A stretch of 30,379 nt of DNA, taken from the IMG/VR virus record IMGVR_UViG_3300045957_000027, positions 1-30,379 of that record. One strand, written 5' to 3'. The notes below the pieces were generated by a model that had not been told where the DNA came from, ran no database searches, and saw only the letters and a program-made list of their open reading frames with translations. This document shows, piece by piece, positions 2,047-26,879 of this stretch. Position 1 is the stretch's first letter; each line of letters opens with the position of its first letter. Origin of the DNA: a virus. The position numbers and the translations under genes are program-made.

Positions 2047-5000
2047 TTATGTGATGCCAAGGAAATATTTGGCGTGCCCCGCCATCTCTTCCACCGTCAC
2101 CGACTGAGACGCAGCCATGTACGGCCACTTCAACCGCCGCACATTCGAACCGCCCGCCCCAACCAAATCCCAGTTCTCTGAAATCCCCGCCGGCGTGTAC
2201 TGATGGAACTGGTAATGCTGGGGAAGAATCAAATAGAAATTGTCGTTCTCGTCGGTGTACGACGGGTCGGCCTCATCATACAACCAACCCCAATTTGACC
2301 CCATCTCAGTAACAGTCTCGAGTTCACCAGTCGAATGGTTCAACGTGTACCACTTGACGTACCCCGTCCCCCCCGGGTCGTTGACAAACTCGACGATACT
2401 TGTCACCCACTCGCCAATCCCCGGCAAAGTCACCGACGAAGGAGCACCCCAATTAGTAGGAATATTTGAGGTGTCGTCGGGATCGATCGCCGTCGGCGTG
2501 TACTTCCCACCCAACGACAAGGTCCCCGACCGAATCGATTGAAGAATCGGGCCAGACCGGTAGATGCCGGGATCGTGGAGCTCCCACGGGCCCGTCGTGT
2601 AGTCGTTGGCGAACATCCACGGCTCAACCGAGAACGTGCAACCAACCACCGTCGGATCCGCCGACGGGCCAACCGGTATGCCAATAGAAATATGCGACAT
2701 CGCCGACCGGTTCCCATCGAAATACAGTTTGTCGGTAGTCGCGTTCGTTGAAGTGTTGTCTTGCCCGGACTGGTACACGTACGAACCGTCGGCGACATAC
2801 TGCATCGCCGTATGTACGACAGTGACACCATTGTGGGTGTCCTGCTGTAACCGCTCGTCGGTGCCGTCCTCCATCGTGAACGCACCGTCGATAGTGGTGT
2901 TGTCAACCTCCCACACCAAAGAGTTCCAGTTGTCGTCCAGGCCAGGGTTGAACCGGCCACCGCCGACCACCCATTGACCTTCCGTGCGGTTCTTTCCCCA
3001 CGTCGACGCGTCGGTCGCGTCCAGGTCAACCAAAAGGTTGGCGGTGTTGATGCGGGCCGCTGTGGGGTTTGTCCCACCGCCACCAGAGCCACCGGAACCA
3101 CGGAAAGCCATCGTGTAACCGATTTTCGCTCCGGCCGTGCCAGACCACGTGGCCACACCAGGATCCTCAGACCCGTCCGCCGACTCGGCCGCCGAATGCA
3201 CAGCAATCCGATTCGGGGTAGACGCCGTGTCGTTGTATTCCTCGGTCCACGTCAAAGACGAATCCGGTCCGCCGGTCAGCTGGTCCGTTGCCTGCTGCAA
3301 CATGATCGCCAAAACCCGGTCGCCGAGCAACGTCGACGCCACAGTCGGATACGTGTAAGGCCCGGCCCCGCCAGTCACGTCGAACGACCCCGACACCAAC
3401 ACGTCGGTAGCGAGACCATCCAACGCGATGACAACGCCCTGCTGGCGTTGATCGGACGAGGTGCCACCAAACGTGAACGTAGACTCTCCACCGTTGACCC
3501 CTGTCCAAATACGGGACTGCGGCCAGAATTCCCCGGTGGTGTTCGTCAACGTATCTTCAACGGTGACACCCGAAACGGTAGGCGCCACCCAAGTGATTGT
3601 CCCCGCGTTCCCGAACCCTTGGCAGCTCGAAACAAACACCAGGGTGTTCCCAACACCGGTCGGGTCCGGGTTGTTGACTGTCGCCGTTCCCGACCCGTTG
3701 TAAGTGCCGAGCACGTCAACCACCGACAAGTACGTGACGGGTTCACTGCCGCCGGTGCCCCCGTCGGTGTTGTCGTCCGCTCCCGACCCGACCTCGAGCA
3801 CCGGCGACAAATCGTATTCGACCTTCCATACCCGGTCGCCGTTGCCGAACTCACCGCGAATCGCTTCGATAAAGAAATCGCCGGACACGCCCTCATCGGA
3901 ATCAACAAACGCGACCCGGTCAGACAGGCGACGGGTTCGGGCCTGGACGCGGTGATGATACGACTTGGTGGCGGTAAACCCGAACGTTACTATCGGCCGA
4001 TCCTGGTCGAACCTGGTCAACAGATAATCGTTGTAAGTGGCCGCCGCGGCCGCGGTCGGAAGGATCGACGCTGGGTCGGGGTGGTCGACAATCGACCCGT
4101 GGTCGAATTGGGACGCCACGTTGTTCGACTCGACCTCGGGGCCACCAGCCAGAGGAGGCGGGTCGCCAGCGTAAGGTCGGACTGCCATAGTGAACGTCTC
4201 GAGGTAGTCGAACGCGTTGAACAACCCCGTAAACGGCGACGGGTCGCCGACACCGCTCGAGTTGTTTTGCAAAGCCCGCTCGAGGGCCACGTCGTAGGAT
4301 GACCCGCCGGTGGCGTTCAGGAAAAAGTTTGCGTTGGAGTTCCAGCCGTTAGGGTTGCGGGACTCCGAGGAAGCGTCCACAAGCCCACCGGTTGTTGAAA
4401 CCATCCCGACTCGGTACGTGAGATACAACGTCGGTGACGGCGCCCACGGTGTCAGGAGTGTCGGCGGATTGTTCGTCCCGGCTTGCGCGCTTGACGTGGT
4501 GTGCGGCGCCCCGTACCCGGTGGGTGACGCGATAGCGACCCCGGCAGTCACCTCGCCGTACCAGTTGGTGACAAGGTCGACGAACGCTAGCCACGCCCCA
4601 CCGGATGATGTGTCATCGTAAAACTTGACGACTGAGCCGAGGTCACCGGCTTCTAGTCGTTTGGCGTAGACGCGGGTAACGCCGAGCTCGTCGAACGTGG
4701 GCCGCAGATTCGTCCACCCAACGGGGTTGAGCCATGGTGTCCCGTCGGTTTGGACGGTCGACGCGATGGTGACAAGGACAAGGTCGCCGGCGGTGGCACC
4801 ATCGGCGGAATTCGGGATGATGACGGTGATGTCATTCGCGGTCGATGCGGGTGCGTCGCCCCCGTTCCCGAACGTTTGGACGATTCGGGGGAGGGTGGGA
4901 GAAACTTCGGAGGTGACCCGGTTGACGATGTCCCGCATCGACGTTCGGACTGTCACCGATTCTGGGGCGATTTCGGTGGCGTTAACCGGCGAATCGGTGA

Positions 5001-6318
5001 ACGTGGCGACCGGAGTGGCCCGATCTCGAGCCGAGCGGGCATCGAACGCGATCCCACCTTCGGGCGGTTCGTAGACAAACCCTACTTCGGCGTCCTCGAA
5101 CTTGCGGACCGCGTTGATGGCCTTCTGTTTCAACGCCCCCACACCACCGGTCGAAAGGTCCCCTGCGTCAAGAGGCAAAGGGGGGTGGAGCATCCCAACC
5201 GACGCCAAGGTTTCCCCGATCGACTGGCCGGTTGTTTTCCCTACAGTCAAATTCTCGGATGCGCCCAACGACGTCGGGGTAGAAACGGTCCGGTCGAGTC
5301 GAGCCATGTCGCCTTCGGCGATCACCACAGCCGTCTTTTCGCCCCGTTGGTTTCGGTTGGGGGTGCACGAAGTCACCGTCCCCGACCACAACACCCCATC
5401 TTGTGGGGATCGGACAGTGTCCCATACGGCGAACTCGTCCCAAGTGGGTGCGCGTTGGGCCGCCCAGAACCCATACAAACCGACTTTGGAACCTGTGGTC
5501 CCCACCAGCGACAGCTCCCGAAACGGGACCCCGGCAATGTAAACGGTTCCGGTAGACCCGACTACTTCGATCCCCAACGTAATGGAACCGGCGAAGTCTC
5601 GGGCCCTGAAATTGGGTGTCGATTCGACCCCCGCCACTCGATTGAAGTACCGAAACCCCCACGTGTACAACGGAAACACGACTTCGTAGTTGCTGGTGTC
5701 GGAGTAACGGAAAACGAGGCCGACCGTGTTGGGGTAGTCCGCGTACGGGATGGTTACTTGCGCGTAGTAGTCGTTTACGCCGACGTCGACCACCGCGATC
5801 GATGGGGTTGCCGGGGTGCCGGTGGTGACTGCCCGCCCTCCTGAACGAATCATGGAACCCGACACGGTCGACCAGGTTTCGCCGTCCTCAGTGGTTGAGG
5901 TGTTCATGTCGCCCGACCCGGCGAACCGGTCGCGGGCCAACTGGTCCGGGTCGGAAGGCGACGACTCGGAAGTTCGAAGCCGGATACGGCGCCCGTTTTT
6001 CAGTGAGTAGTTCCCGGTGTTCACCGGAGATGACGTGTTGTAATAAGAAAACCTGTTGTCGGTGTTGTCGAGCGTCAACCGCATACTTCCGGGGGTTGAC
6101 CGCCCCAGCAGCTGGCTCGGGTAGTCGCGGCCTACCCGGTAGTCGCCGCCAATCACATAACTAGAAATGTTCTCGACGGCCTGGTCGAGGTCGCCGTCGT
6201 TGTCGAAATCCCATTCGACGATCAGATCGGAACCGACCTGCCCGGTCTGGTTGGTGAGCGCAGCGGGGTTGTACGCGTACCCGTCGCCGGTTGCGGTTTC
6301 GGCGGCTACATCAACCAT
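2047..6318 (-). CDS. minor tail protein / putative receptor-binding tail-tip protein
   Basis: This 1423-residue protein is the last gene of the tail run; its ATG directly abuts the TAG of the tape measure gene. Residues 35-45 contain a calcium-loop-like DFDNDGDLD, followed by a region (about 48-130) typical of siphovirus minor tail proteins near the baseplate. Two Ser/Gly/Thr-rich beta-sandwich-like modules with a similar GDLVLV...W layout lie at about 480-730 and 860-1080, joined by Gly-rich linkers (GSGGSGGGG). The C-terminal part (about 1085-1423) reads like a concanavalin-A/polysaccharide-lyase-type jelly roll, rich in Trp, Tyr and Asp, suggesting glycan binding or cleavage. The tail-tip role follows from position and the N-terminal motif. 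The enzymatic or lectin role is an inference and I cannot name catalytic residues. Confidence 0.75.
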   Translation of the reverse strand: MVDVAAETATGDGYAYNPAALTNQTGQVGSDLIVEWDFDNDGDLDQAVENISSYVIGGDYRVGRDYPSQLLGRSTPGSMRLTLDNTDNRFSYYNTSSPVNTGNYSLKNGRRIRLRTSESSPSDPDQLARDRFAGSGDMNTSTTEDGETWSTVSGSMIRSGGRAVTTGTPATPSIAVVDVGVNDYYAQVTIPYADYPNTVGLVFRYSDTSNYEVVFPLYTWGFRYFNRVAGVESTPNFRARDFAGSITLGIEVVGSTGTVYIAGVPFRELSLVGTTGSKVGLYGFWAAQRAPTWDEFAVWDTVRSPQDGVLWSGTVTSCTPNRNQRGEKTAVVIAEGDMARLDRTVSTPTSLGASENLTVGKTTGQSIGETLASVGMLHPPLPLDAGDLSTGGVGALKQKAINAVRKFEDAEVGFVYEPPEGGIAFDARSARDRATPVATFTDSPVNATEIAPESVTVRTSMRDIVNRVTSEVSPTLPRIVQTFGNGGDAPASTANDITVIIPNSADGATAGDLVLVTIASTVQTDGTPWLNPVGWTNLRPTFDELGVTRVYAKRLEAGDLGSVVKFYDDTSSGGAWLAFVDLVTNWYGEVTAGVAIASPTGYGAPHTTSSAQAGTNNPPTLLTPWAPSPTLYLTYRVGMVSTTGGLVDASSESRNPNGWNSNANFFLNATGGSSYDVALERALQNNSSGVGDPSPFTGLFNAFDYLETFTMAVRPYAGDPPPLAGGPEVESNNVASQFDHGSIVDHPDPASILPTAAAAATYNDYLLTRFDQDRPIVTFGFTATKSYHHRVQARTRRLSDRVAFVDSDEGVSGDFFIEAIRGEFGNGDRVWKVEYDLSPVLEVGSGADDNTDGGTGGSEPVTYLSVVDVLGTYNGSGTATVNNPDPTGVGNTLVFVSSCQGFGNAGTITWVAPTVSGVTVEDTLTNTTGEFWPQSRIWTGVNGGESTFTFGGTSSDQRQQGVVIALDGLATDVLVSGSFDVTGGAGPYTYPTVASTLLGDRVLAIMLQQATDQLTGGPDSSLTWTEEYNDTASTPNRIAVHSAAESADGSEDPGVATWSGTAGAKIGYTMAFRGSGGSGGGGTNPTAARINTANLLVDLDATDASTWGKNRTEGQWVVGGGRFNPGLDDNWNSLVWEVDNTTIDGAFTMEDGTDERLQQDTHNGVTVVHTAMQYVADGSYVYQSGQDNTSTNATTDKLYFDGNRSAMSHISIGIPVGPSADPTVVGCTFSVEPWMFANDYTTGPWELHDPGIYRSGPILQSIRSGTLSLGGKYTPTAIDPDDTSNIPTNWGAPSSVTLPGIGEWVTSIVEFVNDPGGTGYVKWYTLNHSTGELETVTEMGSNWGWLYDEADPSYTDENDNFYLILPQHYQFHQYTPAGISENWDLVGAGGSNVRRLKWPYMAASQSVTVEEMAGHAKYFLGIT

Positions 6319-13008: not shown

Positions 13009-13191
13009 ATGAGCGAGCCGAACTGGGAACCAATCGAAACCCTCCTAAACCCACCACCCACCCTTAAACCCGTCGACGACACCTGGTGGCGGTGGATCAT
13101 CCGCGGCGCCCTCTTGACCATCGGCGCGGTCTGCGCCGCCCCCATCGCCGCCGTAGTCCTTCTGTTCTGGCGTGGCTTTCTCGGCGGTTAA
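13009..13191 (+). CDS. 60-residue membrane protein on the opposite strand of the late run
   Basis: The protein has a 29-residue cytoplasmic-type N terminus with several prolines and tryptophans (NPPPTLKPVDDTWWRW) and one long hydrophobic segment (about residues 31-54, ALLTIGAVCAAPIAAVVLLFW). It is the only plus-strand gene between 2047 and 25740 and has its own promoter-like signal. Its start MSEP shares the ATGAGCGAG bases with the first gene of the cassette at 25740. Its TAA interlocks with the TAA of the fibre gene through a shared TTAA (13188-13191). This is the pattern of a moron, a gene added between structural genes with its own promoter. Function unknown; a superinfection-exclusion or host-membrane role is only a guess. 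Confidence 0.6.
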   Translation: MSEPNWEPIETLLNPPPTLKPVDDTWWRWIIRGALLTIGAVCAAPIAAVVLLFWRGFLGG

Positions 13192-15923
13192 GACACCGTC
13201 TCAGCGTAAACCGGGCGCCACCCATCAAACGGGCAGAACAAACGCCCATCGGACCCCAACTCCAAACGGTGACCGTCGTTCGGGCATGCCACCGGCTGCC
13301 CCGATCGTTCACGCTCCAACTGATCACGCCGCCGCTCAGCAATCGACAACAACCCAAACCATCCCGCCCCGCCCCCCCCGGTCCCCGGCGTCGGTCGAAT
13401 ATCTGATTCGACCGACGCGTCTGCCGCTTCGCCACGGCCCGACGCCAACAGAACCGCGGCACCAACAGCGGCAACCGGGTCAAACGCCGACCCGGTCCCC
13501 AACGCCGTCGCCGGTTCGGCCTCGCCTTGAACGATTGTCTGTATCTCTGCTGGTTCGTACGCCGTGCCCGTGCCCGTAGCGGTGTCGACGTCGACCCCAA
13601 TATTGACAGTGGCGTCATACCCGGTACCGGCACCTGCGGCCGGAGCGGCTGCCGAGCCGACATCGGATACAGGGTTGTAGCCGGCACCCGAACCCGACGC
13701 CGTTTCGGCGTTGACCGTGACAGCAGCAGCTGCGTCATACGCTGCACCCGAACCGGTGGCCGCCCCGGCTGGCGCTTGGGTTTGGGTTTCGGTCGAAACA
13801 GTGGCGTCATACGCTGCACCGGACCCGCTGGCCGTCTCGGCGTTGACCGTGACCCCAACTGTGGCCGCGTGGGCGGTGCCCGAACCCGTGGCCGCCTCAG
13901 CCGGCGCGTTGGCCTCGCTCGAGGTCGACACCGTGGCGTCATACGCTGCACCCGAACCTGACGCCGTTTCGGCGTTGACCGTGACAGCCGCCGAAGAGTC
14001 GTAGCCGGCACCCGAACCCGTGGCCGCCCCAGCTGGAGCGGTAGTCTCGCTCGAGGTCGAAACAGTGGCGTCATACGCTGCACCGGACCCGCCGGCCGTT
14101 TCGGCGTAGACCATGACAGTCGCCGAAGAGTCATACGCTGCACCGGACCCGCTGGCCGTCTCGGCGTTGACCATGACAGCAGCAGCTGCGTCATACGCTG
14201 CACCGGACCCGCTGGCCGTTTCGGCGTTGACCGTGACAGCAGTTGCGGCGTCGTAGCCGGCACCCGAACCCGTGGCCGCCTCAGCCGGCGCGTTGGCCTC
14301 GCTCGAGGTCGACACCGTCGCGTCATACGCTGCACCCGAACCTGACGCCGTTTCGGCGTTGACCATGACAGCAGTTGCGGCGTCGTAGCCGGCGCCGAGG
14401 CCTGATGCCGTGTTGGAGCTCGCCGCGGCTGCCACGGCAGCGTCATACGCTGCACCCGAACCGGTGGCCGCCCCGATGTCGACGACCGCCGCCACAGTCG
14501 CGTCGTATGCCGTGCCCGAACCGGTGGCCGCGGACGAAACCGCTGTCGCAGCGATTGCCGCGTCGTATGCCGTGCCCGAACCGGTGGCCGTCTCGGCGTT
14601 GGCTTCAACGTCGACAAGGGTCGACACCGTCGCGTCATACGCTGCACCGGACCCGCTGGCCGCCTCGACGTCGACCGTAACCCCGACCGTGGCGTCATAC
14701 GCGGCGCCCGAACCCGTAGCCGCCCCACCGTTGACAGCGACCCCCCCGGCAACGTCGTAGCCGGTGCCCGAACCCGTAGCCGCACCGCTGTTGACAGCCG
14801 CCGCGATCGCCGCGTTATAAGCCGCTCCTGTGCCAGAGGCGGCCCCAGCGTTGGCGCTAGTCCCACCGGCACCGCTTATCTGGAAAGCGCCAATGTCAAC
14901 CCCGGTAGTGGGGCGGGCGTTGCCGGCAATGTCAATCGAGAAGTCCTGGCGGGTGTCGGTCTCGGAACCTTGCCGGTCCGTGCCGTTCTCTAGGAGAACA
15001 TTGTTGGCGTGAGATACCGGGGTCGCGTCGAACGTGGCGACCGCAGTTTCGGTGATATAGGCACCGGCCGTGCCAGGGGCAGTGTCGACCAGACCGTCGG
15101 AAGCGTCTTGCCAGTTGGTCGAGTTGTCGGTACTGCCGACATCCAGGTTGATTTCGGATGCACCGGTTCGGGCGTTGTGTGAACCGTTGAGCGTGATATC
15201 CAGAAGCGAATCGAACTCGAGAGCCTGAGCGACTTCCGTGCCGACAATGCAGTTGTTGTAGAAGTTCCATACGGCTCCGTCGCCGCCCTGGTCGCCCGAT
15301 AGGACGTTCGCCAAATTGTTGCCGCCACCGTTGAGAACGACGGTGTTGTGTTCGCAGTTGACAGTCGTTCCACTGATCACGTACTGGGGGTGGATACCGC
15401 CCCTCTCCCACCCGTAGATCACATTGTGGTCTATGTGGACGGCATCGGTGCCGTTGGCGAAACCGGAGGAGCCGTAGATGCCGTCGGTCTGCTGGGCGCT
15501 GTCGTTGTCCGTCCAAATGATGTTGCGTGAAATGACGCACTCGGTCCCCCCAAACCGGATGCCTTCGTCGGAAGTGCCGATGCTCCCAGTTGTCGGCCGG
15601 TAGACCTGGAGATAGTCGACCTGTGCGTAGCTCGAATCGATTTGGATGGCGGCCGTGTCACCACCGCTGTAGCTGATCCGGGCCTTCGACGTCGACCAGA
15701 TCCCGGCGTGCCGATTCGCTGACGCTACGGTAAGCCACACGAACGAGGTGGTACTAGTCCCGCCACCGTCGATAATGACCGCTTCGTCATAGGCGGCGTT
15801 GTCGGAGATGACACCTTTCCAGATGTCCGCCCCGCTATTCAAGTTGGTTGCGGCCTCCCACGCTGCGATCGTGGTGTAGTTGCCGCCCCCACCGGAGATG
15901 ATGGTCCGGGTGACGGTCGCCAT
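13188..15923 (-). CDS. virion fibre: beta-helix head, 22-unit repeat stalk, zinc-ribbon end
   Basis: This 911-residue protein starts at ATG 15923, overlapping the previous stop (TGATG). Residues 1-345 form a probable right-handed parallel beta helix of the pectin-lyase type: turns rich in Asn, Gly, Val and Ile (for example NVIYGWERGG, NNCIVGTEV), closing with the GVDIGAFQ motif typical of the last coil of such domains. Residues about 360-830 are some 22 tandem repeats of 20-24 residues with consensus (S/T)GSGAAYDA-x-V. The C terminus is a zinc ribbon, CPNDGH...CPFDGW (about 887-905). It lies among head and connector genes, so it may be a head or neck fibre. The beta helix suggests glycan binding or cleavage; catalytic residues are not identified. 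Confidence 0.75.
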   Translation of the reverse strand: MATVTRTIISGGGGNYTTIAAWEAATNLNSGADIWKGVISDNAAYDEAVIIDGGGTSTTSFVWLTVASANRHAGIWSTSKARISYSGGDTAAIQIDSSYAQVDYLQVYRPTTGSIGTSDEGIRFGGTECVISRNIIWTDNDSAQQTDGIYGSSGFANGTDAVHIDHNVIYGWERGGIHPQYVISGTTVNCEHNTVVLNGGGNNLANVLSGDQGGDGAVWNFYNNCIVGTEVAQALEFDSLLDITLNGSHNARTGASEINLDVGSTDNSTNWQDASDGLVDTAPGTAGAYITETAVATFDATPVSHANNVLLENGTDRQGSETDTRQDFSIDIAGNARPTTGVDIGAFQISGAGGTSANAGAASGTGAAYNAAIAAAVNSGAATGSGTGYDVAGGVAVNGGAATGSGAAYDATVGVTVDVEAASGSGAAYDATVSTLVDVEANAETATGSGTAYDAAIAATAVSSAATGSGTAYDATVAAVVDIGAATGSGAAYDAAVAAAASSNTASGLGAGYDAATAVMVNAETASGSGAAYDATVSTSSEANAPAEAATGSGAGYDAATAVTVNAETASGSGAAYDAAAAVMVNAETASGSGAAYDSSATVMVYAETAGGSGAAYDATVSTSSETTAPAGAATGSGAGYDSSAAVTVNAETASGSGAAYDATVSTSSEANAPAEAATGSGTAHAATVGVTVNAETASGSGAAYDATVSTETQTQAPAGAATGSGAAYDAAAAVTVNAETASGSGAGYNPVSDVGSAAAPAAGAGTGYDATVNIGVDVDTATGTGTAYEPAEIQTIVQGEAEPATALGTGSAFDPVAAVGAAVLLASGRGEAADASVESDIRPTPGTGGGGAGWFGLLSIAERRRDQLERERSGQPVACPNDGHRLELGSDGRLFCPFDGWRPVYAETVS
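13430..14840 (-). repeat. coding tandem repeat, about 22 units of 60 or 72 bp
   Basis: The repeats encode the stalk of the fibre protein. Most units are 60 bp and several are 72 bp (extra Glu-Ala-Asn-Ala-Pro-type insertion). Plus-strand blocks such as gcgtcatacgctgcacc recur many times with little change. Boundaries are approximate. The frame is preserved in every unit, so the number of units could change by recombination without breaking the gene. Confidence 0.85.
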
Positions 15924-16450
15924 CAGAGGACCCCGAGCCGGTCCCGGGTCATCGTCCCCGGGTGACGTTGCCGAATGTTTCCTTGGGTGGTGTCGCTATC
16001 CCAAGCGGGGACATCGGTGACCGACAAGCCGTCGTGGCGGTTCTTGATCGCCGGCAACCGGTTAGCGCCAAGCGTCGCCTCGCCACCGGGCGCCTCCAAC
16101 GAGTTCCGTTGACCGGGGGGGAGATCATCAAGGTCGAGCCACCACAGGCGCCTACCAATGACCTCGGTCCCACCGCCCCCATCGCTGTCAAGCCAAGCCT
16201 CGGCCAGATTCAGGTCACACCGATACGACGGGAACCGGACGACAGCAAACTGCGGGTTGGGGAAGTTCCCGGTGGTGCGGGACACTCCGACAAGATCGTC
16301 GGGGAGCCCATTGGGGAACGCAACCTCGTCGGAGGCCGACCAACGGGACATGACCTCGAACGGCCCCCACACGTGAACGTCGGGGACAGCCGCCAAGATG
16401 TCGCCTCGGAGGTAACTGCCGTGGACACGGTTGACAATGAGGAGCTGCAC
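15923..16450 (-). CDS. unknown protein upstream of the fibre gene
   Basis: The frame extends to 16528, but that overlaps the end of the previous gene. The GTG at 16450 follows a GGAAGGGG ribosome site and leaves 19 bases between genes, giving 175 residues. The sequence begins with a beta-rich stretch (QLLIVNRVHGSY), contains HVWGPFEVMSRW and an aromatic, Asp-rich middle (RLWWLDLDDLPPGQRNSL), and ends polar and basic. There are no membrane segments. The TGA overlaps the ATG of the fibre, suggesting a shared job such as fibre attachment or chaperoning. I do not recognise a family. Confidence 0.6.
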   Translation of the reverse strand: MQLLIVNRVHGSYLRGDILAAVPDVHVWGPFEVMSRWSASDEVAFPNGLPDDLVGVSRTTGNFPNPQFAVVRFPSYRCDLNLAEAWLDSDGGGGTEVIGRRLWWLDLDDLPPGQRNSLEAPGGEATLGANRLPAIKNRHDGLSVTDVPAWDSDTTQGNIRQRHPGTMTRDRLGVL

Positions 16451-16469: not shown

Positions 16470-16946
16470 TCAGGCGACGTTGATAGCGCAGATACCCGAA
16501 GCGTTCCACACGATCGTAAACGTTCCACCCGTCACCGACTGGACGCCACCAAAATAGTTGTAGCAGAGCCCTTGATCGGCGACAGGGGTCGTCACCGTGT
16601 CCGAATACACCAAACACCCGTACACGTTGGCCAGTGTGGTCGACGCCCCACCCTGCGGGGTGTCGGCAGCGTCGAACGTCCACACCCCAGCCGACGGAGC
16701 CGACGTAACAGACGTCAACGGTTCGCCACCAGCATCCCAGTTGGTGCCGTCCGACACCTCGTTACCGGCCGACGCCCACTGTCCAGCGTTGTACGCCGAG
16801 TTCGCGGCCGTGACCGTGTTATCGGGAGTGATGTCGTTGTCGTACAGGGCCGCTTTGAACGTGTCCCCGTTGCAGTCGATCGGGGCAGTGTTGTCGAACA
16901 CATCGTCGACGGTCTGCTGAAAGATCTTCGAATTGGACCAGGCCAT
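16470..16946 (-). CDS. probable virion structural protein of unknown family
   Basis: The 158-residue protein begins MAWSNSKIFQQTVDDVFDN and continues with a beta-rich, Asn/Thr/Ala/Gly-rich body (FKAALYDNDITPDNTV, NAGQW, LCYNYFGG, FTIVWNASG). The pattern of an F-K-A-A-L-Y strand, N-A-G-Q-W, and a terminal F-T-I-V-W strand resembles small structural proteins I have seen described in tailed phages only as hypothetical. Three cysteines (C25, C110, C127) do not form a zinc motif. Position between decoration-like proteins and the fibre suggests a surface protein of head or neck. Confidence 0.6.
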   Translation of the reverse strand: MAWSNSKIFQQTVDDVFDNTAPIDCNGDTFKAALYDNDITPDNTVTAANSAYNAGQWASAGNEVSDGTNWDAGGEPLTSVTSAPSAGVWTFDAADTPQGGASTTLANVYGCLVYSDTVTTPVADQGLCYNYFGGVQSVTGGTFTIVWNASGICAINVA

Positions 16947-16950
16947 TTAT

Positions 16951-17145
16951 CTAGGCTCCCTTGTCGTGGGCGTCGAGTTCGGCCTGGGCGGCATCGAGCC
17001 GGGCGCGGGCGTCGACGACCTTGTCGTCCGGCTTCCCGTCAGCCTCGCAGCGCGCGAGACGGGCCGCGGCGTCGTCCCGTAGGAGGGTGAGATGCGCGAC
17101 CTGTTCCTCGGGGGCGCGGCCTCGACCGGTCTGAATACTCGTCAT
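16951..17145 (-). CDS. 64-residue coiled-coil protein
   Basis: This small protein has an ATGA overlap with the stop of the previous gene. It is almost wholly helical: two predicted helices (EEQVAHLTLLRDDAAARLARCE and DKVVDARARLDAAQAELDAH) are separated by a short GKPDD turn, as in a helical hairpin. It is Ala, Arg and Asp-rich with one cysteine and no membrane segment. It may be an assembly factor or small connector by context. No family recognised. Confidence 0.6.
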   Translation of the reverse strand: MTSIQTGRGRAPEEQVAHLTLLRDDAAARLARCEADGKPDDKVVDARARLDAAQAELDAHDKGA

Positions 17146-17510
17146 GATGTTCTCCTGTTTGCGTAGGCGGTGGGGGCGAACACCGCCGTGTCGTTCGAAC
17201 CGTCCGCCCGTTCCACCCGGACAGCGGACACCGCCCGCCCCCGATCATCGTGAGCCACGCCCCGCTCCGCCCCGACGTAGTCCTCGCGTTCCACAGCAAC
17301 CGACCGGATCTGGCCGCGGCGCAAACCAAAGTTCGATGTCACCCACACCAACGGCACCGACAGCCCACGTTGGGAGGGACACGAATGGAGTTTCGTGGTT
17401 GAATGTCCAGGGGGTGGGACCCGGTCGCCGGGCTGCCACGCCTGTTGCACACCACAAGACGGGCACTCAAACCCGCCTTCGGGTCGCAGGGTGACAGCAC
17501 GACCGGACAT
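17142..17510 (-). CDS. small protein with CxxC zinc-binding motif (third of three)
   Basis: This 122-residue protein starts at an ATG sharing a base with the preceding stop (TGATG). Residues 14-19 read FECPSC, and a second group follows at HSTTKLHSC (His36, His42, Cys44). A CxxC plus His/Cys set could bind one zinc ion, though this is less canonical than in the two preceding proteins. The remainder (about 50-122) is beta-rich and charged (RGQIRSVAVEREDYVG, AVSAVRVERADGS) and may be a small barrel. It is coupled to its neighbours. Likely a virion or assembly protein by context; function unknown. Confidence 0.58.
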   Translation of the reverse strand: MSGRAVTLRPEGGFECPSCGVQQAWQPGDRVPPPGHSTTKLHSCPSQRGLSVPLVWVTSNFGLRRGQIRSVAVEREDYVGAERGVAHDDRGRAVSAVRVERADGSNDTAVFAPTAYANRRTS

Positions 17511-17974
17511 CAGGCGTCGCCAACCTCGAGAGCGTCGGCGTAGTCGATCAGTTCGGAACGGGTGGCCCCCTCCTCGGGGTTGCCGCCGAGCGCGGTCACG
17601 TAGTCAACCCAATCTGCGGTAGCAGCGTTCCCCGCTGGGCGCGACACCTCGCCGGCAGCGTCACCACCAGACTCGTCGACCTCGACCTCGACCTTCTCGA
17701 GCTCGGGATCCGGGTCGGGGGTGTGGCGTTCAGCGTCCGACACCGCCGACGCAGCCGACACCCGACCATCCGGGTCTTTGATGTTCGACGGGCCACTATG
17801 AACGGTGCCCTTAGCCATCTCAACGTCCTTTCGACAGATACGACACAAAGGGGTCCCGCCCCTGTCCACCAACACCGGACCGCCCTGCGGGTGACACCTG
17901 CCTGAACCACAAGCGGGGCACACCTCGGCCTGCCAGTTGTAGGCGGTCCCACAATCGTCGCAATGCCACAGCAT
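17510..17974 (-). CDS. double zinc-ribbon protein with HeH/SAP-like C terminus (second of three)
   Basis: The gene encodes 154 residues and begins three bases inside the end of the upstream gene's spacer (stop and ATG adjacent). The first zinc site is Cys5, Cys8, Cys19, Cys22 (HCDDCG and CPACG). A second likely site is Cys27, His28, Cys44, Cys47 (RCH, LCRIC). A Pro/Asp/Glu-rich linker follows (about 75-115). The C terminus, WVDYVTALGGNPEEGATRSELIDYADAL, looks like a small helix-extended-loop-helix (HeH/LEM/SAP-like) motif. An internal ATG at 17818 with a good AAGGA site could yield a second 102-residue product without zinc sites. Such HeH motifs occur in small phage head proteins. Function unknown. 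Confidence 0.62.
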   Translation of the reverse strand: MLWHCDDCGTAYNWQAEVCPACGSGRCHPQGGPVLVDRGGTPLCRICRKDVEMAKGTVHSGPSNIKDPDGRVSAASAVSDAERHTPDPDPELEKVEVEVDESGGDAAGEVSRPAGNAATADWVDYVTALGGNPEEGATRSELIDYADALEVGDA

Positions 17975-18289
17975 TCACACCGCCTCCGGTAACCCAAGCG
18001 CCTGGAGTTCCACTTTCGACATGCCAGCCGCCACGTCGGGAGCTACACCCTCGGTAATAGCCCATTGGCGCCACTCGTCGACAGGCGCACGGACGACCGG
18101 CCGACCCGAAGGCGAGACGTCATCGGCCGGCACATCCGTACGTTCCCGCACCCGAAGGCCGACAAGCGAAGCCAAAGGGTGCGACCCGTCGGCCTCATCG
18201 ACACCGAACGGGCGGAGACGGGCCCGGCAGCGCGGGCAAGCCAAAAGGCGTGCCTTCCACACTTCGCCGCACCCGTCACACGCCCACAT
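17975..18289 (-). CDS. zinc-ribbon protein with HeH/SAP-like C terminus (first of three)
   Basis: The protein has 104 residues and starts at ATG 18289, one base after the preceding stop. The N-terminal zinc ribbon has Cys4, Cys7, Cys18, Cys21 (ACDGCG and CPRCRARL). The middle is charged and Pro/Val-rich. The C-terminal segment (about 72-102, WRQWAITEGVAPDVAAGMSKVELQALGL) matches the layout of the C terminus of the next protein: aromatic helix, glycine, loop, Ser-x-x-Glu-Leu helix. The two proteins therefore appear to share an architecture and may be paralogues. A longer frame extends to 18709, but it is antisense-like to the decoration gene and lacks support. Confidence 0.62.
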   Translation of the reverse strand: MWACDGCGEVWKARLLACPRCRARLRPFGVDEADGSHPLASLVGLRVRERTDVPADDVSPSGRPVVRAPVDEWRQWAITEGVAPDVAAGMSKVELQALGLPEAV

Positions 18290-18290
18290 T

Positions 18291-18746
18291 TCAGGCGGCC
18301 GCCACGGAAGCGCCGATCTCGGCCGGCGTGTAGATGACGCTCCACTTGACCGACCCGGTGTTTGACGCCGCACAGTCGAGCTCGATCGCCCCCTCCGACA
18401 GGAGAAGCGGGTCCTGGAGCATGACGTTCCCGACCAACAGATCGGACACCATCGCGTCGGCGACAGTACCGGTGATCGTGTAGATCTCGCCGACAGCGTC
18501 GTTGGCGATGTCCAGCACGGCGCACAGGTCCTGGTCGGCGCCGGTGGCGTCCGGGTTGAACTTGACCTTTGTGTTATTCGCCTGGTTCTGGATGACGGTG
18601 GTGACCTCACCCCAAATGGCATTGATGATGACCGGCCCGCCAGAGATGGTGAACAGCGCACCGTCGGTCGACTGGGGCAGCGTCGCGGTGGCCCGCTGAA
18701 CGAGGACACCGTAAATCGCTGGGGTCGTGTTTGACTTGTTACCCAT
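18291..18746 (-). CDS. decoration-like head protein 2
   Basis: The 151-residue protein, MGNKSNTTPA..., is beta-rich with Thr, Val, Ile and Asn. The segment VKFNPDATGADQDLCAVLDIANDAVGEIYTITG aligns by eye with ITIKESIDGASEQNLAVIDLAHKAPGIGGTWTAIS of the gene upstream, so the two are likely paralogues. It is located two genes after the major capsid, the usual place of capsid-stabilising or decoration proteins. The lack of cysteine motifs and membrane segments and the Ala-rich C terminus fit a secreted-style beta sandwich on the capsid surface. Decoration is an inference. Confidence 0.6.
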   Translation of the reverse strand: MGNKSNTTPAIYGVLVQRATATLPQSTDGALFTISGGPVIINAIWGEVTTVIQNQANNTKVKFNPDATGADQDLCAVLDIANDAVGEIYTITGTVADAMVSDLLVGNVMLQDPLLLSEGAIELDCAASNTGSVKWSVIYTPAEIGASVAAA

Positions 18747-19275: not shown

Positions 19276-20676
19276 TCAGGCTCGGGTAGCGAGCTGGACG
19301 AACGGGGACAGGGTGTCGGACCCGTTGCGGGGGGTGATGGCCGACTGGAGCCACGGGCGACCGTCGACACGAGACACAATCTTAAAACTGGTCTTGTCCG
19401 ACGTGAAGTTGACATGCTCGCTCGAGGAGGCCGACATCATCTGCCGGTCGCCGACCAGGTAGAACCCGAAATCGACGAAGCTGATGTCGCCTTGGGTGCC
19501 GAGCGCGGCCGGGGTCTTCTCGGTGACCACGATCGGGCGGCCCAGGAGGGTCATGGTCGGGGCGCCGGTCCCATCGGGGAGCCACACGGGGACACCGCCG
19601 GTCCCGACGTTCAACGCCATGGTGGCCAGTTCGGGGAACACATCGGTCGACACGACCCACACGGCCCGGTTGATCGACTGGGGCAGCATCCGGGCGTACA
19701 TCTTGATGATGTTCTCCCAGTAGATCGTCGACGCAGCCTGACCGGTTTCCTTGGCGACCGAGATGATCGACCCGTTGTCGCTGTGGAGGGCTCCCAGTGG
19801 CTTGCCGACACCGTTTCCACCGAGGAACGCGTCGTCCTCGTCGAACGCCAAAGCCTCCGGGAACAGCTCCGAAATGAACATTTGGAGCGCACCCGGCGAG
19901 TCGGTCAGCAACTCGTTCGGGACGGTGGTGTAGGTGACCAGCTTGCGGGCCTGGAGGGTGATGGCCTGAAACTCGGGGGCCGACTCGGTGTGAGTGGCGG
20001 CCTCCTCCTCCCAGTACGAGACGATCCCGCCGTGGACGCTTGAGGCGTTGGTGGTCGAATCGATCGCCGGGAACGACAACCGCAGGGACTCCATCGGCAC
20101 AACCCGAGCCCGGGACCGAACCACCGAGGTTTCCAAGTTCAACCGCAGGATTTCGGAGCGCAGGACCTCGGGGAGGAGGAACCCGCCGCCGGCACCCTCG
20201 GTCGACGTGAACGCGTTGCGGATGTCGCGAACAATGGTCTGCTGCTTGGCGTCGAGGTTGGCGTTATGCCAGATCAGAGAAAAGAAATCCGACATACCGG
20301 TCGGGCCAGCGAAATGCTTGTCGATGGCCGAACCGATCGCCCGCGGGTTGTTGAGGCCCTTCCGGCGGTCGATCTCGGCGCCGGGGTTCCGGGCGTACTG
20401 CTCGAGCGCAGTGTTCGCGACCGGGGTCGGGACGAAACCTTCGTCGCGCTGTTCCTTGAGGAACGCGGCCATGGTCTTTTCGACCTGGTCCTGGACCTGA
20501 ACGGCGATGTCGGTCTGCTTGTTGAGAACAACCTGGGCGTACTTCGCGATGAACGCCTCGAACTGCCCGGGTTCCTTCAACACGGCGGACATGCGCTTCG
20601 GGTCGGCCAGGAAGTCCTCGAGCCCCGCTGGGGTGTCCGGGATCGTCAGGTCAAGATCGGTGTCGGTCACGGTCAT
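19276..20676 (-). CDS. major capsid protein, HK97 fold
   Basis: The 466-residue protein starts at an ATG overlapping the protease stop by four bases. Residues 1-150 are a helical, charged region (DFLADPKRMSAVLKEPGQFEAFIAKY, VQVQDQVEKTMAAFLKEQRDE) matching the scaffolding delta domain removed by the protease. The HK97-like shell domain follows: GGGFLLPEVLRSEILRL (N-arm), ARVVPMESLRLSFPAI, a spine helix around SPGALQMFISELFPEAL, FLGGNGVGKPLGAL (common to this family), WVVSTDVFPELATMAL and LLGRPIVVTEKTPA...ISFVDFGFYLVGDR (P domain and loop). Neighbours on both sides (protease, decoration) agree. The cleavage site cannot be fixed from sequence. Confidence 0.95.
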   Translation of the reverse strand: MTVTDTDLDLTIPDTPAGLEDFLADPKRMSAVLKEPGQFEAFIAKYAQVVLNKQTDIAVQVQDQVEKTMAAFLKEQRDEGFVPTPVANTALEQYARNPGAEIDRRKGLNNPRAIGSAIDKHFAGPTGMSDFFSLIWHNANLDAKQQTIVRDIRNAFTSTEGAGGGFLLPEVLRSEILRLNLETSVVRSRARVVPMESLRLSFPAIDSTTNASSVHGGIVSYWEEEAATHTESAPEFQAITLQARKLVTYTTVPNELLTDSPGALQMFISELFPEALAFDEDDAFLGGNGVGKPLGALHSDNGSIISVAKETGQAASTIYWENIIKMYARMLPQSINRAVWVVSTDVFPELATMALNVGTGGVPVWLPDGTGAPTMTLLGRPIVVTEKTPAALGTQGDISFVDFGFYLVGDRQMMSASSSEHVNFTSDKTSFKIVSRVDGRPWLQSAITPRNGSDTLSPFVQLATRA

Positions 20677-21847: not shown

Positions 21848-23932
21848 CTAGCGGCGCCACACACCCGTAATCGTCCCCCGGCAACGCTCACGACCCTCAC
21901 ACCCCACATACCCGCCATACGCCCCACCCGGATAGGACCGCATCACCTGATCCAATTCATCCGTGTTCCCCAGCCACCGGCCATCCACCTCGCGGCACGG
22001 GCCACACGTATTCGAATCGTTCACCTCAGACGCATACACCGCACCCACCGGGCCCCGAGCCAACGTTTCAATCCGAGCCTGATTCTGCGTGCCCGTCAAC
22101 GCCGACGACAACTGAGGCCGCGGCCCATCCACCGACAAATCACCCAACGCCAACCGGACAGCATCAGCCACCTCCGACGGCGACGCCGCCGACGAATTGG
22201 CCCGCATCGCGTTCGACTTCGCCGACCCAACCAGGCGAGCCGTCACCAACGCCGCCACCACAACCGCCACATCACGGAACGAGAACCGCGACGGAACCGC
22301 CGGCTGCAACCGCACACCCTGCGCCGCGGCCTCCTCAACCACCGCGTCCGCCGCGTCCTCAGCAATATCGGCCATAGCGTCCATCAACAAGACCACCATC
22401 GCGTCGGTGTCGACCGTCAACCGCTCGAGGTCAGCGATCGAACCAGACTGGGCGATCGACAACACTTGAGCAACCAGGGCGGCCTTTGCGGTCTCCTCCA
22501 AACCGGCCCAGTCCGCCAACAACCCATCAAGAACCGCATCGAACTTGGTTTGGAGGCGCCGCACATCCGGCAGTTCGGCGGGGTCCAGATCGGGTGGATC
22601 GTCGACGTTGCGTGGACGGTGCGGCCACCGGAAGCCGGCGTAGACCCTGGCCCGGTCCTCCACGACACCCGGCCCGATCCGAGGCGGTTCCTCTTCGTCT
22701 TCGATGAACGGGGCCAACTGGGCCGGCACAGGCTCCGGTTCCGACCACTCGAGCTCGGGCAGGTCGAACGCTTCGAACGCCGCCGCCGGGTCAGCACCCA
22801 ACTTGATAGCACGCCAAGCCGCCGCAATCCGAGAATCCCGGTCCTTCGCCTCGTCCTCCACGTTCCCGGTCACAGGGGATTCGAAATCGAACTCGTAACG
22901 GTCACCGTTGGCGTACATCGGCAACAGCCGCCGATTCAACGCTGTTTGGATCTTCCGCAACCTGGGGACCGTCCGGTACTTCGAATACACGTACTCGGCG
23001 GCCTCAGCCGTCGCCCGATTCACCCCCTCCGTCTGCCCCAACAGGGTCTTCGACATGCCCTTTGCCAACATGATCTGCTCGCCCGCGGCCTTACGAAGCT
23101 CGGTGAACTGCATGTCCCGCATCGAAAACGACCGGTCTTTCCACTGCATCCCCGCCTCAAGGATCGCCACCCGGTGCGAGTTCGCGACCCCCCTGTGCTG
23201 GGCGTTCCACCGGGCGTTGAGAGTGTCGAACTCCTCGTCAGTCAAATTCTCCACGACCTCGATCACGCCACCGGGTTCGGCCGAGTTCCGAAAAAAGTTG
23301 GCGTTGTACCGGGCCGCCGCCACCGACGCCTCGAGGTCGTTCATCAACGCATCGATCGGCGACGTAGCGGTGTAGGGGTCGCGGGGGTTGCCTTTCTTGA
23401 TGTGGATGACCTGCTCCACCGGGAACGGGACCATGCGCCCGTCGGGGTCGCGGTACACGTATCCGGCCAGGTACTTCGACCGGGACGGGACGGCCCGCAT
23501 CCGCTCCGACGACACCGGCCACAGGGACAGTGGCAAACCGGCGGCACGGTCGGACATGCCGATCACCCAGAACGTCTCGTAGGTGAGTTCGTAGTGGAGC
23601 CACGAGTTCTCGAGGAATTCGACGCGGTCCATGAACGGGTTGGGCTGTTCCCACAGGTCGAGGGCGGCGTGGGAGACGACTTGGGTGCGGTCTTCGTCTT
23701 TGCCGGACGCGGCTCGGGTCCAGAGGTGCCATTTGTGCTGGCTGATGTCGGTGACGAACTGGTCGATGACGGCGAACAGGGTGGGGTCGGCGTCGTAGGC
23801 CCGCATCGCGGTTTCGGCGTCGTTGCCGGTGAAGTGGGGGACGACGGGGGTCTGTTGGTAGGCGACGGGTGTGCCGGTGGCGTTGCGAACCTTTCGCCCG
23901 ATTGCCACCAAATCACTGACCGGCGATCTCAC
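21848..23932 (-). CDS. portal protein fused to a MuF-like C-terminal domain
   Basis: This 694-residue protein starts with GTG at 23932, overlapping the previous stop by four bases (GTGA). The longer frame to 24268 runs opposite in sense to the membrane protein and is not used. The portal core lies at about 1-400: YDADPTLFAVIDQFVTDI, FMDRVEFLENSWLHYELTYETFWVIG, VEQVIHIKKGNPRDPYTATSPI, AARYNANFFRNSAEPGGVIE and KTLLGQTEGVNRATAEAAEYVY. A linker of charged helices follows. The C terminus (642-694) carries TCGPCREVDGRWL, then YPGGAY...GCEG...CRGTI, the pattern of the SPP1 gp7/MuF domain, with Cys643, 646, 678 and 684 possibly holding zinc. The portal forms the ring for DNA passage. Portal and MuF are usually separate neighbouring genes; here they are one. 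Confidence 0.9.
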   Translation of the reverse strand: MRSPVSDLVAIGRKVRNATGTPVAYQQTPVVPHFTGNDAETAMRAYDADPTLFAVIDQFVTDISQHKWHLWTRAASGKDEDRTQVVSHAALDLWEQPNPFMDRVEFLENSWLHYELTYETFWVIGMSDRAAGLPLSLWPVSSERMRAVPSRSKYLAGYVYRDPDGRMVPFPVEQVIHIKKGNPRDPYTATSPIDALMNDLEASVAAARYNANFFRNSAEPGGVIEVVENLTDEEFDTLNARWNAQHRGVANSHRVAILEAGMQWKDRSFSMRDMQFTELRKAAGEQIMLAKGMSKTLLGQTEGVNRATAEAAEYVYSKYRTVPRLRKIQTALNRRLLPMYANGDRYEFDFESPVTGNVEDEAKDRDSRIAAAWRAIKLGADPAAAFEAFDLPELEWSEPEPVPAQLAPFIEDEEEPPRIGPGVVEDRARVYAGFRWPHRPRNVDDPPDLDPAELPDVRRLQTKFDAVLDGLLADWAGLEETAKAALVAQVLSIAQSGSIADLERLTVDTDAMVVLLMDAMADIAEDAADAVVEEAAAQGVRLQPAVPSRFSFRDVAVVVAALVTARLVGSAKSNAMRANSSAASPSEVADAVRLALGDLSVDGPRPQLSSALTGTQNQARIETLARGPVGAVYASEVNDSNTCGPCREVDGRWLGNTDELDQVMRSYPGGAYGGYVGCEGRERCRGTITGVWRR

Positions 23933-24246
23933 TTGTCGGTCCTGATGTAGTAGTCGAGCGCCATCAGTGACACGGCCCCGGCGAAGTAGCCGGCAACCTG
24001 GTGGAGTTCGTAGAACCCGTAAGTGATGAGGGCGGCGGCGGCGGTCAGCATGACCACGGAGCGAAGGCGAGTGAACCAGTAAACCGCCCACCGCTTCGCC
24101 GGCCCGGCAGCCCACATGGCGGCTGTACGTGCCGCTGAGAGGAAATGGCCGACGGCGGTGGTGGACCGGGTGGGGACAGCGCGCAAGGGTGGGGGGTCGG
24201 TGGCCCCGGGTGCTCGTGGGATGTCGCGGGGATACGCCGAGGTCAT
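23929..24246 (-). CDS. small membrane protein between terminase and portal
   Basis: The protein has 105 residues from the ATG at 24246; a GTG at 24264 is an alternative start. The N terminus is Pro/Arg-rich and the C-terminal half holds two predicted membrane segments (about 62-80, VVMLTAAAALITYGFYEL, and 84-98, VAGYFAGAVSLMALDYY). It ends with a charged YIRTDK tail. Its stop overlaps the portal GTG (GTGA). Genes of this sort lie between terminase and portal in several phages without known function. A small holin-like or membrane-targeting role is possible, but nothing in the sequence decides it. Confidence 0.6.
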   Translation of the reverse strand: MTSAYPRDIPRAPGATDPPPLRAVPTRSTTAVGHFLSAARTAAMWAAGPAKRWAVYWFTRLRSVVMLTAAAALITYGFYELHQVAGYFAGAVSLMALDYYIRTDK

Positions 24247-24290
24247 ACCACGCAACGCTACCACTCACCGTGACCCGAGATCACCAAGGG

Positions 24291-26302: not shown

Positions 26303-26463
26303 TGATCGCCACCCGGCTAACCATGTCTATGGTCGGTGTCGTCATCCCGGTATACCTCGGGCTGACCGTCACTAGCCAATCCGGATGGCAAGCGGCCATT
26401 TGGTGCGCCCTCATACTCTTCGCCAACGTAGTTGGTTATATGGATGGAAGACATTTCAAATGA
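26302..26463 (+). CDS. 53-residue two-helix membrane protein, third gene of the cassette
   Basis: The protein has two predicted membrane segments (about 5-24, [20 protein letters not shown], and 31-46, [16 protein letters not shown]) with a short polar loop between them and a basic tail (MDGRHFK). It has the topology of a small holin or membrane-anchored accessory protein. It is translated by stop-start coupling (TGATG) and its own stop overlaps the start of the pentapeptide gene (ATGA). Presence beside a pentapeptide protein is unusual for a holin, so a membrane effector or exclusion role is an alternative. Neither is proven. Confidence 0.62.
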
Positions 26464-26879
26464 CTGGATTTACCGACAAGATGATCCAATTGGTGTTGGA
26501 CAGCCACGCCCGATGGCTGGCCGACAACTCCACCGGCCAACGCGCCAACCTCAGGTACGCCAACCTTTGGGGCGCCGACCTCGGGGGCGCCGTCCTCGGG
26601 GGCGCCGACCTCGGGGGCGCCGACCTCAGGGGCGCCGACCTCGGGGACGCCGACCTCGGGGGCGCCAACCTCAGGTACGCCAACCTCGGGGGCGCCGTCC
26701 TCGGGGGCGCCGACCTCAGGGGCGCCAACCTCAGGGGCGCCAACCTCAGGTACGCCGACCTCCGGGACGCCAACCTCAGGGGCGCCAACCTCTGGGGCGC
26801 CGACCTCTGGGGCGCCCTTTGGAATGAGCACACGGTGTGGCCGGACAGCTATCAGCCGGAAACGAAGGCATCGACATGA
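26460..26879 (+). CDS. pentapeptide repeat protein, 18 repeats
   Basis: The gene encodes 139 residues. A 27-residue helical lead ([20 protein letters not shown]) is followed by 18 consecutive pentapeptides A(N/D/V)L(x)(x), such as [10 protein letters not shown] and ANLRG (residues about 29-118), and a short Trp-rich end. Such repeats fold as a right-handed quadrilateral beta helix of about 4.5 turns; some members (Qnr, MfpA) mimic DNA and inhibit gyrase. The central position of each repeat is leucine in every unit I read, as expected for the folded core. It is the last well-supported gene of the coupled cassette. Whether it targets gyrase, host DNA-binding proteins or something else is unknown. 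Confidence 0.88.
26544..26813 (+). repeat. 15-bp coding repeats of the pentapeptide protein
   Basis: Eighteen near-identical 15-bp units of the form GGCGCCGACCTCGGG or GCCAACCTCAGGTAC run without interruption. The close DNA identity suggests recent expansion by slippage or unequal recombination. The opposite strand reads as open frames only because of the repeat. Confidence 0.85.

Follow-up and report, generated by a model that had tools for sequence, protein, structure and literature searches.

The 30,379-nucleotide stretch of viral DNA analysed here (positions 1 to 30,379 of IMG/VR record IMGVR_UViG_3300045957_000027, hereafter the window), a linear and possibly partial virus record, encodes a 911-residue protein. 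This is probably a fibre by which a siphovirus of actinobacteria adsorbs, anchored on the phage head or neck through its C-terminal end and bearing an exchangeable glycan-binding head at the other. The evidence that carries this reading is the distribution of its C-terminal 53-residue module, which belongs to a family of small proteins found at a constant place between the major capsid and head-tail adaptor genes. The fibre gene lies on the minus strand, the plus-strand reading of the same interval being ruled out by many stops, and is divided as follows:

13188..15923, minus strand: fibre gene, 911 aa, ATG at 15923
14874..15923, minus strand: head, beta helix, residues 1-350 (from alignment, model, fold searches and homologue)
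13368..14873, minus strand: stalk, A/G/T-rich, residues 351-852 (from unit regular expression, unit profile, Tandem Repeats Finder (TRF) and autocorrelation)
13209..13367, minus strand: C-terminal module, residues 853-905, a W..LL.I helix followed by CPNDG...LFCPFDGW (from profile and family alignment)

A search with the pattern FCPFDGW recovered 72 viral stretches, in 68 of which the motif closes one module of about 55 residues; the other four were set aside as chance matches without the capsid-adaptor context. The module is laid out as W..LL.I and a helix, then C-P-N-D-G..L..G.DG..F-C-P-F-D-G-W, and a profile built without the window matches fibre residues 853-905 (E 4e-20). For the most part it is a stand-alone mini-protein of about 55-65 aa; the long in-frame extensions 5' of many stand-alone copies are not real, being the upstream gene read in the wrong frame, and rich in arginine. 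Throughout this pattern-based set a capsid gene lies upstream of the module (50/50 loci with a recognisable capsid) and an adaptor gene downstream (63/63 loci having an adaptor). To avoid the bias of the pattern, only the adaptor (alignment A3) was used to gather a second set of loci, the module playing no part. Among the matches listed, the module again lies between capsid and adaptor in all 81 viral contigs and actinobacterial prophages that have both genes, and since these are the best-scoring part of a larger family, the proportion holds for the relatives of this adaptor and not for all actinophages. The adaptor search of the genome collection yielded prophage-like loci in Streptomyces, Nonomuraea, Catellatospora and others. 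An isolated siphophage, Dagobah, encodes in the identical slot a stand-alone homologue of the fibre's module, the hypothetical protein of gene 15 (MT711977, 60 aa), which is 49% identical to the family consensus and sits directly 5' of adaptor gene 16; it differs from the fibre in having neither head nor stalk, and its knuckles read CPVH and CPFA in place of the window's CPND and CPFD. The fibre belongs to this slot family both by its profile match and by its location between the major capsid and head-tail adaptor genes. Pfam, PHROGs and NCBIfam offered no convincing model for the module, a PDB sequence search with it gave chance matches only, and our search of the open literature found no description of such a module or of an actinophage neck zinc protein.

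The module is not always free-standing. In 9 of the 81 loci, and likewise in the window and in loci L023, L096 and L042, a longer protein carries it as its C-terminal end, and such fusions never have it elsewhere; no second copy was found in the stretches with the fused form (cut-off E 0.01). The fused N-termini fall into seven types with no detectable mutual similarity, namely the beta helix of the window, a LamG/ConA-like lectin with an A/G-rich repeat stretch behind it in loci of both prophages and viruses (L213, L241, L253, L265, L278, L286 and L288, of which L286 and L288 belong to prophages of Streptomyces spinosus and S. alboflavus; Pfam PF13385, E 2e-13 for L286), and single cases in L023, L096, L042, L292 and L296. 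A repeat stretch likewise separates head and module in L023, L096 and L292. On a capsid-protein tree of 81 rows, a quick tree from which change counts are approximate, the fused state needs 11 changes by parsimony, at least nine of them forced by well-supported branches, and LamG fusions accompany distantly related capsids, a sign of horizontal exchange. The adhesin-type nature of the fusions argues that the module works at the particle surface, where an adhesin is useful. Stand-alone modules, in turn, adjoin slot genes for LamG (L014), beta-helix (L041), glycerophosphodiester phosphodiesterase (GDPD; L029) and repeat proteins (L004), which marks the capsid-to-adaptor interval, as judged from its gene content, as a variable surface-interaction slot. 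GDPD domains were seen both in the module slot (L029, 7104-9101) and on a repeat-stalk protein (L087, 3704-5626); both proteins are candidate teichoic-acid-degrading head or neck enzymes. The earlier note on this DNA, made from its letters alone, had placed the fibre in the head-connector region and taken it for a possible head or neck appendage. The location is borne out by the position of the gene between capsid and adaptor, and the constancy of the slot module (50/50, 63/63 and 81/81), together with the unrelated adhesin-type fusions, upholds the appendage as the most likely role.

Every structural gene of the window is on the minus strand, in the order terminase, portal, protease, capsid, small capsid-region genes, fibre, adaptor, tail genes, tape measure and minor tail protein:

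25778-24291, minus strand: terminase
21848-24268, minus strand: portal, 806 aa
21767-20673, minus strand: protease
19276..20676, minus strand: major capsid protein, bounding the slot on its upstream side; homologue of the major capsid protein annotated in Streptomyces phage Dagobah
17142..17510, minus strand: 122-aa Cys-containing protein, co-occurring with the 158-aa gene and repeat-stalk genes
16470..16946, minus strand: 158-aa protein, phrog_644, adjoining repeat-stalk genes in many phages
15923..16450, minus strand: partner gene, about 175 aa from GTG 16450, with a homologue directly 5' of the closest beta-helix homologue in L190-L193
11827..12894, minus strand: head-tail adaptor-like protein, 355 aa (phrog_442, E 1e-7), the next recognised gene 3' of the fibre
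8706-6319, minus strand: tape measure
6318-2047, minus strand: minor tail protein, 1423 aa

The fibre ATG shares one base with the TGA of the partner gene (CTGATG), and the fibre gene is, by the look of this junction, translationally coupled to its partner. The closest annotated terminases are those of Thermobifida phage P1312 (59%) and Streptomyces phage Dagobah (52%), for which reason an actinobacterium appears the most likely host. No near relative of the window was found in the phage collection; tblastn with the head, the module and the whole protein found no close relatives in annotated phage records, nor did a single-sequence search of viral contigs, and the relatives of head and module were reached solely via short motifs and profiles. 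Several other genes of the window were noted in passing. Three more small Cys-rich, zinc-ribbon-like proteins are encoded in the capsid-to-adaptor interval (17975-18370, 17510-17974 and 17142-17510, all minus strand), with motifs such as MWACDGCGEVWKARLLACPRC, MLWHCDDCGTAYNWQAEVCPACG and FECPSCG. The portal open reading frame (21848-24268, minus strand) appears to carry a fused minor head domain (MuF-like) in its CGPCREVDG-type end region. On the plus strand, 26385-26879 encodes a pentapeptide-repeat protein of 164 aa whose DNA is a 15-bp tandem repeat in 18 copies, and 164-889, at the left end of the window, a likely C5 cytosine DNA methyltransferase.

The head gave no significant match in Pfam, PHROGs or PDB sequences, and the NCBIfam model choice_anch_Q matched the fibre weakly (17 bits against a cut-off of 25). 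Its relatives were collected with the motif TIAAWE, part of the N-terminal motif NYTTIAAWEA; a second motif, DIGAFQ, lies at its C-terminal end. The nearest homologue, the same in L109, L172, L184 and L191, aligns over the whole 350 residues (phmmer E 2e-42; 35% identity over residues 1-349 for L109/L191), and the remoter relatives have in common an N-terminal D-Y-x-T-I-A-A-W-E-A and a C-terminal D-I-G-A; in the genome collection no beta-helix relative was confirmed. From a single sequence AlphaFold gave no usable model of residues 1-359, with a predicted local distance difference test score (pLDDT) of 34. With a 19-sequence alignment AlphaFold2 returned a right-handed parallel beta helix with a predicted TM-score of 0.67, its pLDDT being 80-95 over most of residues 1-110, mostly 55-90 up to 200 and poor at 254-314. 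The best Foldseek match of this model was a pectin methylesterase (E 6e-5). VIA-align against solved structures retrieved parallel beta helices throughout, with 225-275 residues aligned, led by the pectin methylesterase YbhC (Z 18.9, root-mean-square deviation 3.3, 246 residues) and followed by a rhamnogalacturonan lyase (18.8), an alginate lyase (18.3) and the tailspikes Fri1 gp49 (18.0) and Pam1 (17.8), at identities of only 6-14%. The predicted fold of the head is thus confirmed as a right-handed parallel beta helix of the pectin-lyase-like kind by the AlphaFold2 model, Foldseek and VIA-align alike; the earlier note had proposed such a head and called for a structure prediction of the N-terminal 350 residues, which has now been run and yields a beta helix.

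The fold gives no function. Its top rows are tied within 1 Z, so that no single enzyme family is nearest and none is thereby excluded. Non-enzymatic tailspikes have this fold as well as lyases and esterases, and no catalytic site was recognised in the modelled head, so that glycan cutting by it is unproven. We consider that the head most likely binds host surface glycans and may cleave them. A stronger version would make the beta helix a dedicated depolymerase, a lyase or hydrolase of capsular or teichoic glycan, and the fibre mainly an enzyme arm instead of an adhesin. The best folds, which are pectin methylesterases, PL6, PL9 and rhamnogalacturonan lyases, speak for this, as do the GDPD enzymes that relatives carry in the same slot (L029) or on related stalks (L087). 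The identity to the enzyme folds is however 8-14%, the fold also occurs in non-catalytic proteins, and an active site cannot be placed because the head model is poor at about 200-320. We regard the enzyme arm as possible but on the whole unlikely; it is compatible with an adsorption fibre on the head or neck and does not exclude it.

The stalk consists of 22 units, starting at residues 362 to 807 and spanning 362-826 (14840 down to 13446), with a degenerate extra unit after them. Regular expression and profile agree on this count and reproduce the 22 tandem repeats reported beforehand. Each unit reads A-(S/T)-G-(S/T)-G-(A/T)-(A/G)-Y-D plus 11 or 15 residues, giving 20 or 24 in all, with A, G and G invariant at positions 1, 3 and 5 and alternating small and hydrophobic residues thereafter; the period is 20, with some 24-residue units and a higher order of 84 residues. 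TRF detects the arrays at the DNA level. Low-complexity chance was rejected as their source, the lag-20 autocorrelation being 0.38, where 1000 shuffles gave 0.22 at most, and the unit profile matching 0 of 6003 shuffled open reading frames. Proteins with the same repeat, of 5-23 units and otherwise unrelated, were seen in eight or more further viral loci. Many of them adjoin homologues of the window's 122-aa (17142-17510) and 158-aa (16470-16946) genes, and these neighbourhoods include phages with a terminase sharing only about 30% identity with the window's. We infer that the stalk is an extended spacer.

The earlier note had called the C-terminal module a zinc ribbon. A ribbon-like module of two knuckles it is; the classical four-cysteine form is not supported, since the window's module has two cysteines, one in each C-x2-D knuckle (CPNDG and CPFDG, both of the form C-P-x-D-G), the other ligand positions being Asp, and thus falls short of a four-ligand Cys/His ribbon with two C-x2-C or C/H knuckles. 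Across the family (n=91) the fourth residue of the first knuckle is D in 74 and C in 15 members and that of the second D in 84 and C in 4; either D or C is thus present in 89/91 and 88/91, respectively, and some members approach a zinc ribbon. Because D and C are all possible metal ligands and there are usually two cysteines only, we call the module a half or degenerate zinc ribbon, with putative metal binding. Loci L254 and L256 keep the slot module gene with both cysteines gone (QADAGGEPL...FSKFSGYQWPRD), which speaks against a constant need for metal binding.

The module is constant and in a constant place, whereas the N-terminal head varies. In the simplest mechanism the module would dock to the particle, and the fused form would present the head on a stalk. 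The 53-residue module would be the docking end, at capsid, portal or adaptor; a family slot protein that is normally a separate mini-protein would here have been fused behind a beta-helix head and an A/G-rich stalk of 22 units. The stalk would hold the head away from the particle, and the head, which may have been taken over from the tail-fibre regions of other phages, would probably bind, perhaps cleave, host surface glycans, so that the particle stays on the cell until its tail tip takes hold.

Several observations weigh against this mechanism. Most known fibres attach by the N-terminus, and C-terminal docking gives a polarity opposite to that of most tail fibres and of the A-1(L) neck fibre considered below. 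The stalk model is of low confidence (pLDDT about 40), and the catalytic residues of the head are not identified. Family members are known here from genes alone, and it is by inference that we speak of virion presence, module anchoring, oligomeric state, metal binding, glycan target and enzymatic activity. The remaining points come from tail genes. The closest head homologue, that of L191, sits in a tail-fibre region; in L190-L193 a homologue of the partner gene lies directly 5' of it and the pair stands among tail-fibre genes, so that head and partner, found together there and in the window, look like a mobile two-gene unit. In Gordonia phages the genes of the 158-aa family have minor-tail genes around them, and the proteins encoded next are of minor-tail type (phrog_7114). 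Finally, residues 9-17 of the window's 1423-aa minor tail protein (2047-6318, minus strand) are one stalk unit (ETATGDGYAYNPA), and stalk units are therefore common to head-region and tail proteins. These tail-gene observations, with the tailspikes Fri1 gp49 and Pam1 among the fold matches, favour the main rival, a tail fibre or tailspike gene that has moved into the head-gene region and whose module attaches to the tail tube or tail terminator. Against it, all genomes checked have the module between capsid and adaptor, those with a mere protein of about 55-65 aa included, and in the stretches searched it never turned up among tail genes; we hold a tail location to be improbable. A role of the module as an assembly or folding factor or small regulatory zinc protein, in the manner of a chaperone-like domain on structural proteins that may be cleaved off, would suit the tiny, abundant and structurally unannotated stand-alone form and the retention of the gene in the near-identical loci L254 and L256 despite the loss of both cysteines, and is very doubtful given that the module is always C-terminal on secreted-looking adhesin architectures of unrelated origin, that no cleavage motif was noticed and that no DNA-binding or enzyme profile matched.

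Adhesin fibres of the head and neck are already known as such, and the proposed fibre can be set beside several of them. The turret of the archaeal virus HFTV1, with gp30 as base and gp31 as head, has been proposed to make the first, reversible host contact, directed at glycans from the capsid; as is supposed for the fibre, it is capsid-borne and combines predicted carbohydrate-binding and predicted glycan-modifying domains (PMC12494034). Compared by description, it differs in being made of two proteins with deacetylase-like and galactose-binding-like folds, in having no tandem-repeat stalk and in that a CPxDG module is not reported. The non-essential, elongated head-attached proteins phi29 gp8.5, SPP1 gp12 and T4 Hoc are thought to help host contact, and SPP1 gp12 is repeat-bearing (collagen-like) as the fibre is (PMC7602432); these have Ig-like, coiled-coil and collagen folds in place of a beta helix, and are without a family-wide stand-alone docking module. 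The neck fibre gp82-gp81-gp80 of the Anabaena myophage A-1(L) resembles the fibre in being long and modular with a distal carbohydrate-binding module, but is a bead-chain of separate proteins attached by the N-terminal domain of gp82, and its distal module did not bind the tested host (PMC10966104). The tailspikes of Acinetobacter phage Fri1 (gp49, PDB 6c72) and cyanophage Pam1 (PDB 7eea) share with the head the right-handed parallel beta-helix fold and are similar to it in size; they are tail-attached, whereas the helix of the window is N-terminal and followed by the repeat stalk and the C-terminal module.

The tail fibres of the Streptomyces satellite phage MiniFlayer are reported to bind specifically to the neck of its helper (PMC10690885). 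The putative adsorption module of MiniFlayer, gp6-gp9, belongs to a gene order of capsid, a protein of the 158-aa family (gp6), a long LamG and GSG-type repeat protein (gp8) and head-to-tail adaptor, an order also present in the window with one partner gene intervening. The uncharacterised gp8 (1376 aa) differs from the fibre in lacking the CPxDG module and ending in a hydrophobic tail. In the MiniFlayer locus L098 (5186-9997), gp6, the homologue of the window's 158-aa protein, adjoins gp8; the latter may be the fibre with which the neck of the helper is gripped. HFTV1 turrets, the head fibres of phi29 and SPP1 and possibly MiniFlayer can thus be viewed as functional analogues of the proposed fibre.

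More tentatively, in a generalization about which we are of two minds and lean slightly to the cautious side, the family may share a universal capsid-to-neck protein, a helix and half zinc ribbon of about 55-65 aa, that doubles as a C-terminal docking plug, with phages swapping the bare plug for plug-fused fibres with unrelated glycan-binding or glycan-cutting heads. This would be a modular form of head or neck adsorption with reversed polarity, the adhesin being N-terminal and the anchor C-terminal. The module would then offer a small natural domain for docking, for which the binding partner on the particle can be found, and the CPxDG motif a sequence handle for finding the slot in phages and prophages whose genes are now labelled hypothetical. 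The host range of Streptomyces and other actinobacterial phages is usually sought at the tail tip; if the above is true, a second, easily recognised determinant of adsorption would lie in a conserved slot of head and neck, whose adhesin or depolymerase heads can be exchanged.

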